Part shown: piece after piece, positions 1,990 through 49,215 of the stretch
Position numbering within the stretch: position 1 is the first letter of the stretch
Layout of the letters: each line of letters begins with the position of its first letter
NCBI GenBank assembly: GCA_030649025.1
Contig: JAUSGO010000024.1
Coordinates: forward strand, 1-51,863
Reading direction: 5' to 3'
DNA from: a bacterium
GTDB taxonomy: Bacteria; Patescibacteriota; Minisyncoccia; JAUYLV01
Length of the DNA: 51,863 nt
Notes under the pieces: generated by a model
What the model was told of the DNA's origin: nothing
The model's input: only the letters and a program-made list of their open reading frames with translations
The model's database searches: none
Made by a program: the position numbers and the translations under genes

Positions 1990-2361
1990 CTAGCGGATCC
2001 GTCGCATGTCTATCGTTTGTATATACGCCATAAATTTTTTTGGGTCTTTGTAGTTACAGCTCCGCATCCATTCCCGGAACCGTTTTTCTTTGGTCGGGTC
2101 AGTTCCGCTGTTTAGGAGCGCTGTAACCCAGAGGGCGAGACCCGTTATGGTGGCATCTTCGTCGCAAATCTTCAGGCCGCAAAGGTCGCATTGGATGGGC
2201 ATGCGCTTGTCGATGTTCAAGTATTTCCAGCAGTGGATGTTAAAGTTGTTCTTGGCGCAATGTCCGAATTGCTCATGGGTCTCAACGGTACCACTGCTTA
2301 CGTCTTGAAAAGAACAGTAGGAACACTGATATCCTTCAACCGTCATTACAATCGATTTCAT
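1990..2361 (-). CDS. Small zinc-ribbon protein of unknown function
   Basis: A 123-residue protein starting MKSIVMTVEG. The start is fixed by an AGGAGG ribosome binding site 5 bases upstream (2366-2371); the longer reading frame to 2508 runs into comM and is not needed. Visible features: CSYC near residues 12-15, a later H and C (GHC), and CDLC near 60-63, so it can offer two pairs of zinc ligands. The C-terminal half is rich in basic and aromatic residues. I do not recognise the family. Its ribosome binding site lies inside a copy of the hairpin/pseudoknot element (2362-2436), which could modulate its translation. It follows comM on the same strand and may be co-transcribed with it. Confidence 0.7.
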   Translation of the reverse strand: MKSIVMTVEGYQCSYCSFQDVSSGTVETHEQFGHCAKNNFNIHCWKYLNIDKRMPIQCDLCGLKICDEDATITGLALWVTALLNSGTDPTKEKRFREWMRSCNYKDPKKFMAYIQTIDMRRIR

Positions 2362-2436
2362 GCTTCCTCCTGGGCAGCTAACATTTTTCAGAAATAGGGA
2401 AGCTGCTCGTGAAATCTGAAGATGCTCAGATTTCAC
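2362..2436 (-). repeat. Hairpin + pseudoknot element, copy 1 (gene leader)
   Basis: Minus-strand order: hairpin 1 with an 11-bp perfect stem (2436-2426 with 2419-2409) and a 6-base loop; stem a 2408-2402 with 2378-2372 (6 of 7 pairs); conserved loop word TTTCTGAAAAATG; then AGGAGGAAG. The word CTTCC next to stem a can pair with GGAAG after the 3' arm, giving an H-type pseudoknot. The first arm of hairpin 1 is made from the last codons and stop of comM. The ribosome binding site of the downstream gene lies in the 3' strand. Confidence 0.7.
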
Positions 2437-3964
2437 TCCTTTTCCGGTATTGTATCGCTTCGGCAATGTGCTCGACGCGGATAGTTGGGCTTTGCGCAAG
2501 ATCGGCAATGGTACGCGCGACTTTAAGAATGTGATGATAGCTTCGCGCCGAAAGCTTCATGCGCGTTACTGCATCTTTCAAAAGCGCCTCGCCCTTCTCG
2601 TCTACTTTGCAGAATTCTTTGAGGTCCTTCACGCCCATCTCGGCATTGGTGAGGATGGATTTATCTTTGAAGCGCTCTTTTTGCATTGCGCGCGCTGATT
2701 CTACGCGGGCGCGAATGGCCGAAGATTCCTCCGCAACTTTTTCGCTTGCTAGCTTTTCATATTTAAGGCGTGGGACTTCAACGTGCAGGTCAATGCGGTC
2801 AAGCAAGGGCCCAGAAATTTTCCGCTGGTATTTTAGGATGCTCGTTGCGGGGCAGGCGCATTCTTTTTCGGGGTCCGACGCATTTCCGCAGGGACACGGA
2901 TTCATTGCCGCAACCAAGGTGAAACGGGCCGGAAAACTTATCGCGCCCTGCGCCCGGCTTATCGTGACTCGTCCTTCCTCAAGCGGTTGACGCAAATTTT
3001 CGAGCACCGAGCGCCCGAATTCTGGAAATTCGTCGAGAAACAAAATACCGCGGTGCGCGAGCGTGATCTCGCCCGGTCTAGGATATGTTCCTCCGCCAAC
3101 GAGCGAGATGCCGGAGGCCGTGTGGTGCGGACTGCGGAAGGGACGGTCAGAAACGACCGATGTACGCGCGTCGAGAAGCCCTGCTATGGAAAATATCTTG
3201 GTAACCTCAAGAATTTCCTCTTGAGACATCCGCGGCATAATACCCACCATTGCCTGTGCAAGAAGCGTTTTGCCCGAGCCGGGTGGTCCCTGAAAAAGCA
3301 CGTTATGTCCTCCGGAGGCCGCAATCTCCAGCGCCCGCTTTGCGTGTTCCTGTCCCTGAATGTAGGCCATGTCGAGAATTTGCCTTTCCCCCGGCATGTT
3401 TTCCTGTTCAATACGATCTTTGTCTGCTTCATATCGCTCAAGCACAACCTTTCCCAAAAGATGGTTCACGAGCTCTCCGAGCGTGCGGACGGGATAGACG
3501 ATGGCGTCTTTAATGAGGCTTGCCTCGCGCCTATTTTCATACGGCACGAATACTTCATAAAGATCGTTCTTCGCAGCCATTTCAATAATGGGAAGAATGC
3601 CTGCAACGGGGCGCAGGGCGCCGTCGAGCGCCAACTCACCGATAAAAAGTTTTTCAAGGGGATCAAAAACAATTTGCCGGGTTGCGTGCAAAAACCCCAT
3701 CGCAATAGGAAGGTCATACGCGGGACCCTCTTTTTTGATGTCCGCGGGCGCGAGGTTCACGATAACACGGTGCGCCTGGCGGTGCGGCGGATCGAAGCCG
3801 GAGTTTCGAAGCGCCGTCCCCACGCGTTCGCGCGCTTCTTCCACGGCTTTGTCGGGAAGGCCAACGATATGGAAGAGGTGAAGTCCAGGCGAAGTGTCCA
3901 CCTCAACTTGAATGGGGATGGCATCAAGTCCCCAGGTTGCGCCGCTTGATATTTTTGAAGGCAT
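2426..3964 (-). CDS. comM: ComM/YifB-family AAA+ ATPase (Mg-chelatase-like)
   Basis: A 512-residue protein of the YifB/ComM family. ComM is a branch-migration helicase that helps integrate incoming DNA during natural transformation. The N-terminal ChlI-like domain (residues 1-190) begins with SGATWGLDA, and the AAA+ core has Walker A GPPGSGKT at 226-233 and Walker B ILFLDEF at 307-313. A Cys cluster (CPCG and later CACP, about 355-370) follows, as in the family, then the C-terminal Mg_chelatase domain. Length is normal. The presence of dprA at 29 kb supports a DNA-uptake role. The stop codon forms part of the hairpin of the downstream element. The start lies about 150 bases from the divergently transcribed kinase fusion. 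Confidence 0.93.
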   Translation of the reverse strand: MPSKISSGATWGLDAIPIQVEVDTSPGLHLFHIVGLPDKAVEEARERVGTALRNSGFDPPHRQAHRVIVNLAPADIKKEGPAYDLPIAMGFLHATRQIVFDPLEKLFIGELALDGALRPVAGILPIIEMAAKNDLYEVFVPYENRREASLIKDAIVYPVRTLGELVNHLLGKVVLERYEADKDRIEQENMPGERQILDMAYIQGQEHAKRALEIAASGGHNVLFQGPPGSGKTLLAQAMVGIMPRMSQEEILEVTKIFSIAGLLDARTSVVSDRPFRSPHHTASGISLVGGGTYPRPGEITLAHRGILFLDEFPEFGRSVLENLRQPLEEGRVTISRAQGAISFPARFTLVAAMNPCPCGNASDPEKECACPATSILKYQRKISGPLLDRIDLHVEVPRLKYEKLASEKVAEESSAIRARVESARAMQKERFKDKSILTNAEMGVKDLKEFCKVDEKGEALLKDAVTRMKLSARSYHHILKVARTIADLAQSPTIRVEHIAEAIQYRKRSEI

Positions 3965-20056: not shown

Positions 20057-21452
20057 CTAAATTTTGCGTGGTAAAATTTAGGCGGGTGAACGTTAATAAA
20101 ACGCTTATGCAAAATAGTGAAAAACCCTGCTCCAGTGTGAAAAAATAGTGATCAGAAATCCCCAAGGCCAGAAAGGAGGCAAAGAGGGCAAGCGTGACGG
20201 TGTGCCATAGTGTATCCGCATCTCTGCCTTTACGATGTTGCGACCATGTGCGTAGCACGGAGCCGATAAAAAATAGAAAAACCAAAAGCCCAAAAAGTCC
20301 GAATTCCGAAGCAATAAGCAGGTAAGCGTTATGTACGGGCTGATACATCCACGGCTCCGGAAGCGCACCCGTGTGGCGTTCGATGTTCTGCACGAACTGA
20401 CCGGGCCCTACGCCAAAGAATTTATCCGCATCGATCATTTTGGCGGCCCAATAGATTCCCTCAAGGCGTATTTGAACCGCCTGGTCTTCGAGTGCGAGAT
20501 TCTTGCGGCTTTGTATTTCGTTGGAAAAGAATAGCCATGCGAAGAGAGCTGCGCTCAAAAATATTATGCACAGCGCGTAGATCCGATTTTTTTCTCCGGG
20601 AGATAAGACGTTTTTCTTTACGATGATCCACGCGCCCAGTATGGCAAGCCCGATGCCCAGTGCTATCCATCCGCTTCGTGAAAACGTGAAAAGGAGCGAC
20701 GTGAGCATAAGCGCAATACCTCCCAACCACAGACTGCTCGATACTGCGCCACTTGCGCTTTTTTGCGTGTACGCGTATGCGGACATGAAGATTGCGAATA
20801 TCAAAAACGCCGCAAGCACATTCGGATGCGGGAGCGTTCCGTAGGCGCGAACGAACGTTGTCCCCAACGCCTCAAATTTTGCAACACCGGCAATGTTTGC
20901 ACCAATCGTCTGCTCGCCTAAAAACCACAGGCCCGCGCTATGTCCGGAAAAAAATTGGAACCACGAAAGCCCGGCCTGCAGCGCGCCGCTTAAAAAAATG
21001 GGAATGAAGAACGCGGCATATGGAAGAGTTGAGAATCTTTTTGAAAGAAGGGCTATAAAAATGACAAAAAGCGCAAATCTTGCGACAAACGCAATGCCAA
21101 GTGCGGGGGATTCACTTATGAGCGCAGATACAAGGCCGATGCCAAGGAGGAGCATCGCGCTGAGTCCGGTAAGACTTTTTGGTCGTGGCATGTTGCGGTA
21201 TGCCGTCCGTACCATCCAAAACGCCACCAGAACCATCATGGAGATATCCGTTGCGTAGAGGAACACCGTGTTGTAAGGAAAATATGCCAAGCTTCCCTGC
21301 CATAAGGCCGTTCGTGTTCCGATTGGAACGGTAAAACAAAAAACCGCAATAAGCAGTTTCTCGATCTGTGCCACGGAAAGAGGATTCTTTGCTGTCAGCT
21401 CTATTGTGCGAAATACTCTGCGAATGAACACTGATGAAAATTCAAAATTCAA
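20010..21452 (-). CDS. O-antigen ligase / polymerase-like membrane protein
   Basis: About 480 residues with some 11-12 hydrophobic segments. The Wzy_C-type loop is near residues 330-385: RLEGIYWAAKMI, FFGVGPGQF, then PVHNAYLLIASEFGLFG, where the Arg and His are the conserved catalytic-type residues. Such proteins join glycan chains carried on undecaprenyl pyrophosphate to an acceptor or polymerise them at the outer face of the membrane. A CPR cell may use it for S-layer glycans or surface polysaccharide. The first codons are repeats of the palindromic spacer (TTG start at 21452); GTG at 21431 is an alternative. Coupled to DedA by overlap, which fits lipid-carrier recycling. Confidence 0.82.
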   Translation of the reverse strand: MNFEFSSVFIRRVFRTIELTAKNPLSVAQIEKLLIAVFCFTVPIGTRTALWQGSLAYFPYNTVFLYATDISMMVLVAFWMVRTAYRNMPRPKSLTGLSAMLLLGIGLVSALISESPALGIAFVARFALFVIFIALLSKRFSTLPYAAFFIPIFLSGALQAGLSWFQFFSGHSAGLWFLGEQTIGANIAGVAKFEALGTTFVRAYGTLPHPNVLAAFLIFAIFMSAYAYTQKSASGAVSSSLWLGGIALMLTSLLFTFSRSGWIALGIGLAILGAWIIVKKNVLSPGEKNRIYALCIIFLSAALFAWLFFSNEIQSRKNLALEDQAVQIRLEGIYWAAKMIDADKFFGVGPGQFVQNIERHTGALPEPWMYQPVHNAYLLIASEFGLFGLLVFLFFIGSVLRTWSQHRKGRDADTLWHTVTLALFASFLALGISDHYFFTLEQGFSLFCISVLLTFTRLNFTTQNLDGLARHGSFSQHPAA

Positions 21453-21547
21453 AAATCAAAAATCAAAATTTTGGAATCTTGCGAAGGTTTTGCGCACAAA
21501 ACCTTCGCGCCTCCATTATTTTGCATTTTGAGATTTGCATTTTGCAT
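21436..21547. repeat. Palindromic spacer with covarying stem, copy 2
   Basis: GCGAAGGTTTTG (21481-21492) pairs with 21497-21508. Compared with copies 1 and 3 the stem differs at three positions, and each change is matched on the other arm. It is flanked by AAAATTC/AAAATC words on one side and TTTGCATTTTG words on the other. It starts at the stop of the upstream zinc-ribbon gene and reaches the start of the ligase gene. Confidence 0.75.
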
Positions 21548-24925: not shown

Positions 24926-25714
24926 ATGATTAAAATCAAAAACCTCACAAAAAAGTTTGATGCGCAAAATGCGGTTACGGATCTTTCGCTTGAAATAGGC
25001 GCAGGAGAGATTTTTGCGTGCATCGGGCCGAACGGCTCGGGCAAGACCACGACAGTAAAAATGCTTGCCGGTCTTTATATGCCGACCGCGGGAAATATAG
25101 AGATTGGCGGTATATCTTTGGCGAATGAGCCGGAGAAGGCAAAAGCTCTGCTCGGCTACATTCCAGACGTGCCATTCATCTACGAAAAGATGTCCGGAAG
25201 GGAATTTCTCGGTTTCGTAGCCGCACTTTACCGCATGCCTTCCCAAGAGATGGTCCGGAGCACGCATGAGTGGATATCGATTTTTCCGGGCCTTTCGGAA
25301 GTCATTGACGGCTACGTAGAAAATTATTCGCGCGGCAACAAACAGAAGCTGGCTATTATCGCGGCATTGCTTCATAGGCCGAAGATTCTGCTCATTGACG
25401 AGCCTATGGTGGGGCTTGACCCGCAGAGCGTTCTTACGGTAAAAAAGCTTCTAAAAGATTTTTCGCAAAAGGGGCAACATTCTCCGGTGGAGAATGTTGC
25501 GGGCGGCCTCCTTGCTTCTGAAAATGGCATCCGCCCAGGAGGCGCAGTGTTTTTGTGCACGCATACGCTTCCGGTTGCCGAAGAACTTGCCACGCGCATC
25601 GGGATTTTGGAGAAAGGGAAATTGATCGCCATAGGCACGCTTGAAGAACTTCGCACGAAGACTGGCAAGCCCTCTGCCGATCTTGAAGAGGTATACCTTG
25701 CGCTCACGAGCTAG
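24926..25714 (+). CDS. ABC transporter ATPase with an in-frame repeat insertion
   Basis: A 262-residue ATP-binding subunit of an ABC-2 type exporter. Walker A GPNGSGKT is at 34-41, the signature motif YSRGNKQKL near 135-143, Walker B ILLIDEP near 154-160, the D-loop after it, and the switch His in FLCTHTL near 212. Residues 184-205 (22 aa) are an insertion between the D-loop helix and the H-loop strand, a region that in other family members is short. The inserted DNA is a copy of the hairpin/pseudoknot element and keeps the frame open. Whether the protein remains active is unknown. The partner permease follows after a palindromic spacer. Confidence 0.9.
   Translation: MIKIKNLTKKFDAQNAVTDLSLEIGAGEIFACIGPNGSGKTTTVKMLAGLYMPTAGNIEIGGISLANEPEKAKALLGYIPDVPFIYEKMSGREFLGFVAALYRMPSQEMVRSTHEWISIFPGLSEVIDGYVENYSRGNKQKLAIIAALLHRPKILLIDEPMVGLDPQSVLTVKKLLKDFSQKGQHSPVENVAGGLLASENGIRPGGAVFLCTHTLPVAEELATRIGILEKGKLIAIGTLEELRTKTGKPSADLEEVYLALTS
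25474..25542 (+). repeat. Hairpin + pseudoknot element, copy 2 (inside a CDS)
   Basis: Hairpin 1: 25474-25485 with 25489-25500, a perfect 12-bp stem and loop GGT. Stem a: GGGCGG (25501-25506) with CCGCCC (25531-25536). Pseudoknot stem b: CCTCCT (25507-25512) with AGGAGG (25537-25542), perfect. The loop word TTCTGAAAATG matches the other copies. The 66 bases from 25475 to 25540 are extra relative to ordinary family members and form 22 sense codons. Confidence 0.75.
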
Positions 25715-25831
25715 ATAAAATAAAAAATTAAATATCAAAAATCAAAATTAAGGAGTGAAAGTTTTTCCTGCAAGAAAAACTTTCACGATATTCCAAAATT
25801 TTTCATTTTGAGTTTTGCATTTTAAATTTGC
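25715..25831. repeat. Palindromic spacer with covarying stem, copy 3
   Basis: GTGAAAGTTTTTC (25755-25767) pairs with 25774-25786 (13 bp). The flanks CAAAAATC/AAATTAAGGA and TTCCAAAATTTTTCATTTTGAG match copy 1 read in the opposite orientation, so the relation to the upstream gene stop is the same. It separates the ABC ATPase from its permease. Confidence 0.75.
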
Positions 25832-25840
25832 GTGCAGAAT

Positions 25841-27519: not shown

Positions 27520-27610
27520 GCCGGAGTAGCTCAGTGGGCGAAAAGCAAATGTCTTTGCTTTTTGCGGGCAACTACATTGTTTCCAAATGAATGGGAGTTG
27601 TCCCGGAAGA
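27520..27610 (+). repeat. tRNA 5'-arm mimic plus hairpin/pseudoknot element, copy 3
   Basis: 27520-27538 matches the first 19 bases of the tRNA-Thr 119 bases downstream at 16 positions. It runs into hairpin 1 (27538-27549 with 27554-27565, loop TGTC). Stem a is GGGCAACT (27566-27573) with AGTTGTCCC (27596-27604, one bulge). Stem b is TTTCC (27580-27584) with GGAAG (27605-27609). It does not fold into a full tRNA. Confidence 0.65.
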
Positions 27611-27622
27611 GCAATGTTTTCG

Positions 27623-27726
27623 CCCCGTACCTTTTGATGCCAGCGTAGCTCAGTTGGTAGAGCAGGCGCTTCGTAAGCGTCAGGTCGTCGGTTCAAATCC
27701 GACCGCTGGCTCCAAAAGGTACGGGG
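27623..27726. repeat. 14-bp inverted repeat enclosing tRNA-Thr
   Basis: CCCCGTACCTTTTG (27623-27636) and its exact complement (27713-27726) flank the tRNA, leaving two bases before its 5' end and overlapping the last CA of the CCA end. In the transcript the pair would close a long helix around the tRNA, which could guide or block end processing. Confidence 0.7.
27639..27714 (+). tRNA. tRNA-Thr (anticodon CGT)
   Basis: 76 bases with a perfect 7-bp acceptor stem (GCCAGCG/CGCTGGC), D arm, anticodon loop TTCGTAA, T arm GTCGG-TTCAAAT-CCGAC, discriminator T and encoded CCA. It reads codon ACG. A 37-base copy of its 3' half lies 57 bases downstream. Confidence 0.95.
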
Positions 27727-27730
27727 TAAA

Positions 27731-27770
27731 TAAGCGTCAGGTCGTCGGTTCAAATCCGACCGCTGGCCCA
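27731..27770 (+). pseudogene. Duplicated 3' half of tRNA-Thr
   Basis: 27731-27767 is identical to tRNA bases 27674-27710 (anticodon loop to acceptor end) and is followed by CCA without the discriminator base. The breakpoint in the anticodon/T side and the exact match look like the scar of an element that integrates at tRNA 3' ends, or a local duplication. Confidence 0.8.
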
Positions 27771-39150: not shown

Positions 39151-39219
39151 CTCCTCCTGGGTAGCCATCATTTTTCAGAAACACGGAAGCTACCCGCGAA
39201 ATGCTCCACTGGAGCATTT
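39151..39219 (-). repeat. Hairpin + pseudoknot element, copy 4
   Basis: Minus-strand order: hairpin 1 (39219-39211 with 39207-39199, loop AGT), stem a GGGTAGC (39195-39189) with GCTACCC (39165-39159), loop word TTTCTGAAAAATG, and AGGAGGAG after the 3' arm, able to pair with CTTCC beside stem a. The stem a bases differ from copy 1 with matched changes. It points back into the convergent nuclease gene; no minus-strand gene follows it. Confidence 0.7.
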
Positions 39220-39226
39220 TGCCCAA

Positions 39227-43175: not shown

Positions 43176-43250
43176 GCCCTCGTAGTTCAATGGATAGAAC
43201 AGGTCCGTCCTAAGGACAAAATGGGGGTCCGATTCCCTCCGAGGGCACCA
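43176..43250 (+). tRNA. tRNA-Arg (anticodon CCT)
   Basis: 75 bases. Acceptor stem GCCCTCG/CGAGGGC, D arm, anticodon loop GTCCTAA giving CCT, T arm GGGTCC-GATT-CCCTCC and encoded ACCA. It reads AGG. A copy of the hairpin/pseudoknot element begins two bases after it. Confidence 0.93.
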
Positions 43251-43251
43251 A

Positions 43252-43320
43252 AACAAAGATCTTTGATTTGTGCGGGCGGTTACAATGTTTCTGAAAAATG
43301 AATAAACCACCCAGGAACAC
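43252..43320 (+). repeat. Hairpin + pseudoknot element, copy 5 (after tRNA-Arg)
   Basis: Hairpin 1: ACAAA-x-ATC with GATTTGT (one bulge). Stem a: GGGCGGTT (43274-43281) with AACCACCC (43305-43312), one mismatch. Loop word GTTTCTGAAAAATGAAT. Stem b: GTTTCT (43287-43292) with AGGAAC (43313-43318), five Watson-Crick pairs and one G-U. Confidence 0.65.
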
Positions 43321-48902: not shown

Positions 48903-48960
48903 ATGGCGGAGGATTGGCTGAGTGGGCCAAAGCAAAAGTCTTTGCTTTGGCGGGATAATG
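48903..48960 (+). repeat. tRNA-Ser 5'-arm mimic plus palindromic hairpin
   Basis: 48903-48926 resembles the start of the tRNA-Ser at 48984 (GGCGGAG then a D-arm-like TGGCTGAGTGG). GCCAAAGCAAA (48926-48936) pairs with TTTGCTTTGGC (48941-48951), loop AGTC. The segment aligns with the one at 27520-27568 over nearly 50 bases. Stem a of the full element is not clear here. Confidence 0.6.
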
Positions 48961-48983
48961 CCAAATTAATTTCTTTCTAGGGC

Positions 48984-49070
48984 GGAGACGTGGCAGAGAG
49001 GTCGAATGCGCCGCACTCGAAATGCGGTATACCTTTACGGGTATCGGAGGTTCGAATCCTCCCGTCTCCG
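48984..49070 (+). tRNA. tRNA-Ser (anticodon CGA)
   Basis: 87 bases with the long variable arm of class II tRNAs (TATACC-TTTAC-GGGTATC). Acceptor GGAGACG/CGTCTCC, anticodon loop CTCGAAA giving CGA (reads TCG), T arm GGAGG-TTCGAAT-CCTCC, discriminator G. CCA is not encoded, unlike the other three tRNAs here. TTTCTTTC before it and GAAAGAAA after it can pair around the gene. Confidence 0.92.
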
Positions 49071-49215
49071 CCGTGGAAAGAAAATTTTGAAATAGTGTTC
49101 GCCCAGGAATCGGAGGAATCTTCCCTGTTTGTCTAAGAGCGAAGCGATTAGCCACAAACAGCAATCCCGATTCGGCGGGACTCCCGTCTCCGCTTTGGAT
49201 CGAATCCTCTCGCAT
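49071..49215 (+). other. Region with tRNA-Ser 3' fragments and a hairpin
   Basis: ACTCCCGTCTCCGC (49181-49194) and GGATCGAATCCTC (49197-49209) repeat pieces of the tRNA-Ser T arm and acceptor end, in scrambled order. CTGTTTGT and ACAAACAG close a hairpin between them (about 49134-49164). GCCCAGGAA near 49101 matches the 3' tail of the dispersed element. Confidence 0.45.

Follow-up and report, generated by a model that had tools for sequence, protein, structure and literature searches.

When an ABC transporter ATPase carries 22 residues that its homologues lack, an obvious question arises: do these residues represent a peculiarity of the protein, or has a piece of mobile DNA settled in the gene, and, in the latter case, when and by what route did it arrive and how did the gene stay open? 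The gene in question lies in a window of 51,863 nucleotides (the whole stretch of DNA that was analysed), which is contig C24 of a patescibacterial genome, hereinafter G000 (1.226 Mb, 40 contigs). In the comparisons below, G001 denotes a genome from a different genus of the same family. The features of the locus are as follows:

24926-25714, plus strand: ABC transporter ATPase gene, 262 amino acids, host of the insertion (Pfam ABC_tran, E 6e-26)
25475-25540: net insertion of 66 bp, 22 sense codons (residues 184-205), missing in the G001 orthologue and 31 more aligned homologues
25473-25539, minus strand: copy of a double-hairpin element (covariance model match, 82.4 bits, E 3e-18 in the window)
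25474-25500, minus strand: hairpin 2 of this element, 12-bp stem and 3-nt loop, GCAACATTCTCC-GGT-GGAGAATGTTGC
25501-25536, minus strand: hairpin 1 of this element, GGGCGG...CCGCCC stem with the large conserved loop TTTTCAGAA, from the sequence

The preliminary description of this DNA had taken the 66 bases for almost exactly one copy of a repeated element read as sense codons, and this proved correct: codons 184-205 coincide exactly with 25475-25540 and include no stop codon, and the element, which reads CCTGGGCGGATGCCATTTTCAGAAGCAAGGAGGCCGCCCGCAACATTCTCCACCGGAGAATGTTGCC on the minus strand, aligns end to end with other copies in the window and in the genome. The ATPase copy is itself one of the six sequences behind the covariance model that scores it at E 3e-18; blastn alone, however, also pairs it with the copy at 39153-39224 (E 1e-9). 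The repeat family places the element core at 25473-25539, and 25475-25540 is an equivalent cut of the same net 66 bases, that is, the 67-nt core minus one G that is common to the site and the element. These data show that the 66 bases are a single copy of a dispersed, non-autonomous DNA element consisting of two hairpins.

The empty site is found in G001. The orthologous ATPase of this genome is 69% identical and has zero residues at the position of the insert, the alignment reading KEFTGS-GGTALLCTHTL in G001 versus KDFSQKG[...]GGAVFLCTHTL in G000. In silico excision of the 66 bases restores AAG GGG GGC GCA GTG (K G G A V) in frame, where G001 has S G G T A. The same 22 residues are missing from 31 further homologues, drawn from other phyla and from one genome in a different family of the class, so that they are not the ancient feature common to all orthologues that would have spoken against an insertion. 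The absence from the G001 orthologue and the 31 other homologues thus points to an insertion that postdates the split of the two genera, its polarity resting on outgroups: G001 is the one other member of the order compared, and all 32 aligned homologues are without the residues. The comparison shows that the element entered this gene once the G000 and G001 lineages had parted. Given the precise empty site, the earlier claim that the element has moved holds as to the past, while present-day movement is shown by no site polymorphic between strains of one species.

How does the protein cope? In an alignment with the 32 homologues, the Walker A, signature, Walker B, D-loop and H-loop motifs of the ATPase are all intact, and the gene is followed by an ABC_tran_2 gene (Pfam PF16949) at 25832. 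An AlphaFold2 model based on a 33-sequence alignment has a mean pLDDT of 92.3, with residues 192-200 below 50, and places the insert between helix 166-182 (the D-loop helix) and strand 207-211 (the H-loop strand), where the preliminary description had expected an extra loop. The insert is thus predicted to be a flexible, low-confidence loop on an otherwise normal fold, and the insertion point probably codes for a surface turn. The gene stayed open because the net length of the insert is a multiple of three and the frame in question contains no stop. With an insert that is open and in frame, the simplest reading is that it is translated rather than spliced out, and the 22 residues most likely form a flexible loop of the protein. 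A separate AT-rich repeat family (AAAATTCAAAAT... with a GAAAGTTTT hairpin) is also present in the window, at 1-118, 21437-21505 and 25710-25829, the last of these copies directly following the ATPase stop codon.

The element is 67-70 nt long and comprises two hairpins side by side, in the order CC(T/C)GGG, stem 1 (about 7 bp, with a large loop containing the conserved run ATTTTTCAGAAACA), stem 2 (about 12 bp, with a loop of 3-6 nt) and CC. Two covariance models were built, the first from six copies and the second from 81; two divergent copies, the hairpin 2 of which was misaligned by MAFFT, were omitted from the seed model and were both recovered by the search. By these models, G000, scanned except for 8.6 kb of N and 0.6 kb of contig ends, has about 50 copies and G001 about 40; the 52 matches in G000 include about 47 strong ones and 5 that are weak or partial. 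In the model-fitted alignment of 78 distinct copies, 330 double-sided changes were counted versus 87 in shuffles, at 17 of the 19 stem pairs (6 of 7 in helix 1 and 11 of 12 in helix 2), with 95.8% of the cells paired; the covariation score was 0.61, as compared to 0.18 for shuffles and no more than 0.14 for slid controls, an effect that far exceeds the bias of such an alignment towards the model structure. Hairpin 2 is the most variable part of the element and looks like a modular, exchangeable cassette. A low share of G-U pairs in the stems was considered as a DNA-level signature and discarded, the acceptor stems of tRNAs from the same genome being likewise low (1.4-1.9% vs 2.7%). No family in Rfam 15 matches the element, and within the window only four tRNAs reach the gathering score.

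The ends of the element are fixed. In the sense of the ATPase gene, it begins with GGC or GGT and finishes with CCAGG; the preceding base is G in 79 of 81 copies, and the following base is A (61) or G (20), never a pyrimidine. The ATPase site fits this G|R rule. No terminal inverted repeat was seen in the element, and, as the net insertion equals the core minus one shared G, any target duplication amounts to about one base at most. Some elements are nested in others, at either the 3' arm of hairpin 1 or the hairpin 2 loop (L072 12655-12775, L073 7371-7468, L083 and L119), and at several loci of G001 (L093-L096, L110 and L111) copies sit within longer dispersed repeats and were duplicated along with them, some being 100% identical.

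Besides the ATPase copy, the window contains the following copies:

2369-2437, plus strand: second copy, the end of which yields AGGAGG just upstream of a minus-strand ATG
27537-27606, minus strand: third copy, which splits the D-loop of an outer tRNA, TAGCTCAGTG|element|AAGAGC (covariance model and flanks)
39156-39223, plus strand: fourth copy, with the top score (90.1 bits)
43244-43315, minus strand: fifth copy, overlapping the 3' end of tRNA-Arg(CCT) at 43176-43250 (covariance model)
48925-48981, minus strand: weak partial copy within a truncated tRNA-Ser, in its D-loop, closely followed by tRNA-Ser(CGA) at 48984-49072 (second covariance model, R2, E 0.007)

The end of the copy at 2369-2437 may serve as a ribosome-binding site for the minus-strand open reading frame (window 2300-2470), and an element end at C35:15068 is perhaps also Shine-Dalgarno-like ahead of an ATG. 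A second coding copy, C36:2219-2288, lies in frame, in the orientation opposite to that in the ATPase, within a Ser/Pro-rich stretch of a surface-protein open reading frame of more than 1000 amino acids. Depending on which of the six frames is read, 16 to 47 of 81 copies are free of stops; with about half of the copies stop-free in a given frame, openness by itself argues only weakly for translation. The net lengths of the elements are evenly distributed over the three residues modulo 3, and an in-frame open insertion is expected by luck in roughly one case out of seven. Nothing suggests that the element is adapted to coding; there is only tolerance.

Where, then, is the element at home? Its main habitat is tRNA loci, where it occupies the D-loop, the variable loop or the 3' end of duplicated, interrupted tRNA genes; this association, absent from the preliminary description, is the more surprising part of the picture. 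Among the 52 copies in G000, 19 lie within 50 nt of a tRNA predicted by ARAGORN, 24 within 100 nt and 28 within 200 nt, versus 0.9%, 1.2% and 2.0% of random sites, respectively, and 26 of these 28 copies share one orientation relative to the nearest tRNA, the other 2 having the reverse. The flanks are often tRNA-like, as in TAGCTCAGTG|element|AAGAGC, where the element occupies the G18-G19 tip of a D-arm; other copies occupy the variable loop or the tRNA 3' end. The tRNAs that bear elements are second, interrupted tRNAs beside or around an intact tRNA of the same kind, and in the clearest cases the intact tRNA is enclosed by the interrupted outer one, as around the third copy of the window:

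27520-27536, plus strand: 5' piece of the outer tRNA-Thr, with acceptor GCCGGAG, TA and D-arm GCTCAGTG, from the sequence
27607-27622, plus strand: continuation of the outer tRNA-Thr, from the D-arm to anticodon nt 35 (TTCG^TAA), from the sequence
27639-27714, plus strand: intact inner tRNA-Thr(CGT) (ARAGORN, Rfam tRNA, sequence)
27727-27767, plus strand: 3' piece of the outer tRNA-Thr, from the sequence

Here, the anticodon loop of the outer tRNA-Thr (27520-27767) is split as TTCG^TAA, and the inner tRNA-Thr(CGT) is bordered by a 13-bp inverted repeat (27623-27635 / 27714-27726). The nested tRNAs at this locus and at L284, L286 and L287 share one design: the acceptor halves of the outer tRNA are paired, the element is in its D-loop, and an inner tRNA of the same isotype lies inside its anticodon loop, with an inverted repeat of 8-15 bp around it. 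Further such arrangements were noticed in G000 at C28:22240-22740 (Ser), C31:54000-54400 (Ser), C31:75290-75720 (Leu), C2:18480-18830 (Thr) and C18:12480-12780 (Pro), some of these also with elements in the variable loop of the outer tRNA. At C29:39430-39711 of G000, ARAGORN, with introns allowed, reports a tRNA-Thr(GGT) whose intron is 208 nt long; neither tRNA-Thr(GGT) nor tRNA-Asn(GTT) was found there in uninterrupted form.

The tRNA habitat extends beyond the order. A search of 384 genomes of the class, with 13 candidates scored per genome, so that the counts are a lower bound, yielded at least 12 matches in at least 10 genomes of other families, and 12 of 12 matches in other families adjoin tRNAs. 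In G113 (contig C23, L284), the acceptor stem of the outer tRNA-Ala is perfect and includes the G3:U70 identity pair, the D-loop carries an element, and the anticodon loop, TTTG^CAT, is interrupted after nt 35 by a hairpin that holds an intact tRNA-Ala(TGC), nt 36 following on its far side; with the inserts removed in silico, the outer tRNA is read by ARAGORN as tRNA-Ala(TGC). The same nested design is found in G091 (Pro) and G138 (Ala). Since a tRNA-Leu pair with elements in G001 matches that of G000, some tRNA-locus copies predate the genera, whereas the ATPase copy is younger than these. We infer that the element was ancestrally at home in tRNA loops and expanded to other sites in the order of G000 and G001, where it has also spread to intergenic repeats, leaders and a few protein genes.

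What could have moved such an element? The ATPase copy, like almost every other, lies between a G and a purine. In the most likely mechanism, a folded single strand would be the intermediate of copying, and the enzymes would be supplied in trans; the fixed ends, the lack of a terminal inverted repeat, the duplication of about one base at most and the strongly conserved hairpins all point this way. The data show an element that is repeated, has inserted, retains its hairpins and favours G|R sites within or close to tRNA loops. Profile searches of both G000 and G001 gave no match to the Y1 (HUH) transposase (PF01797; control genomes were positive), to reverse transcriptase (PF00078) or to the RtcB ligase (PF01139); the REP/RAYT, reverse transcriptase and RtcB routes were rejected, as the corresponding gene was found in neither genome. 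The absence of the first two would suit copies that spread at hairpins through recombination, gene conversion or template switching, without a dedicated transposition system, and so would the cassette-like hairpin 2 and the many copies in tandem tRNA duplications or longer co-copied repeats (e.g. four identical ones in G001). Recombination between hairpins and tRNA duplicates is accordingly a serious rival for most copies, but less so for the ATPase copy, which lies in unique sequence with the usual ends and site rule of the family, an outcome that short-homology recombination seldom yields; overall, this possibility deserves attention but appears distinctly the less probable. That the extra loop is a lineage-specific or ancient feature of the protein, repeat-like by chance, is barely conceivable: loop lengths do vary among ABC ATPases, but the loop is missing in all 32 homologues, and the full-length match to the family, together with the blastn pairing, refutes this reading.

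Could the element instead be an intron-like unit that is cut out of RNA, the ATPase mRNA and the interrupted tRNAs alike, once these have been transcribed? The fixed position of the copies in tRNA D-loops and variable loops would fit, as would the well-formed outer tRNAs that result from in silico excision in some cases, such as the tRNA-Ala(TGC) with G3:U70 at L284. Nevertheless, this seems very unlikely: intact tRNAs of the same kind adjoin the interrupted ones, genome-wide excision adds just two ARAGORN tRNAs, both second copies, both coding copies found preserve the frame, the RtcB ligase is missing from the search results for both genomes, and the double-hairpin elements of fungal mitochondria are reported to stay in transcripts (PMC2800124). 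The idea that elements interrupt essential single-copy tRNAs was dropped, given that the tRNAs gained when every copy was excised were just a tRNA-Gly and a tRNA-Leu, each of them a second one, and that intact tRNAs lie beside nearly all interrupted ones. Hardly less doubtful than removal from RNA is an undescribed system in which hairpin units, some carrying whole tRNA genes, would insert at fixed points of tRNA loops (the D-loop at G18-G19, the anticodon between nt 35 and 36, and the variable loop), with at least some outer tRNAs still matured into working tRNAs by removal of the inserts; if true, this would be a new kind of bacterial tRNA intron, and the ATPase copy would be a stray. Taken together, it is highly probable that an element whose main habitat is tRNA loci inserted into the ATPase gene after the G000/G001 split and is translated as a loop; copying in trans via a folded strand would be its likeliest route.

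Short palindromic repeats of bacteria include the REP elements, which are moved in trans by RAYT (Y1) transposases; their anatomy and ends differ from those of the element described here, and no Y1 transposase was found in G000 or G001. The nearest known system in behaviour is that of the Rickettsia palindromic elements (RPE; Ogata et al. 2000), which are described in PMC2229807 as short, palindromic, selfish-looking sequences of many copies that are inserted in frame in conserved protein genes, where they are tolerated, and that also occur in RNA genes (tmRNA, RNase P RNA). The comparison with RPE made in the preliminary description is therefore apt for behaviour, the open reading frame being kept here in both the ATPase and the surface protein of C36, but not for membership: RPE are single long stem-loops of 105-146 bp with terminal inverted repeats (same source), whereas the element here measures 67-70 nt, consists of two separate hairpins, shows no terminal inverted repeat and clusters in tRNA loops. 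The likeness is functional, and the family is a different one. In shape, the nearest are the double-hairpin elements of fungal mitochondria and, along with them, the repetitive hairpin elements of sponge mitochondria, which, as outlined in PMC2800124, are dispersed and occur in genes where extra sequence is tolerated, the former being reported as retained in transcripts. Two adjacent hairpins, dispersal and presence in genes recur here (two covarying helices, about 50 copies), but those elements are organellar, and the description in PMC2800124, so far as available, gives no tRNA D-loop habitat; they are likened by shape alone, and no membership is claimed. The GC clusters of yeast mitochondria, described in PMC4478555 and PMC2800124 as short GC-rich hairpin elements in rRNA and in the coding sequence var1, neither removed nor edited, are, by this description, similar as short hairpins in genes but, unlike the element here, organellar.

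In the literature searched, which mostly excluded subscription papers, there was no description of interrupted or nested tRNAs in Patescibacteria or of hairpin elements in tRNA genes; tRNA loci as the main habitat of such an element are new here. The ATPase insertion is a second, independent bacterial case of short selfish hairpins in a working protein, with a clean empty site. It exposes an element family at home in the tRNA-gene loops of a small-genome bacterial class, along with interrupted tRNAs that enclose intact ones, allows a direct study of how tiny elements spread without a visible enzyme, and opens the question of tRNA gene duplication and interruption in reduced genomes.
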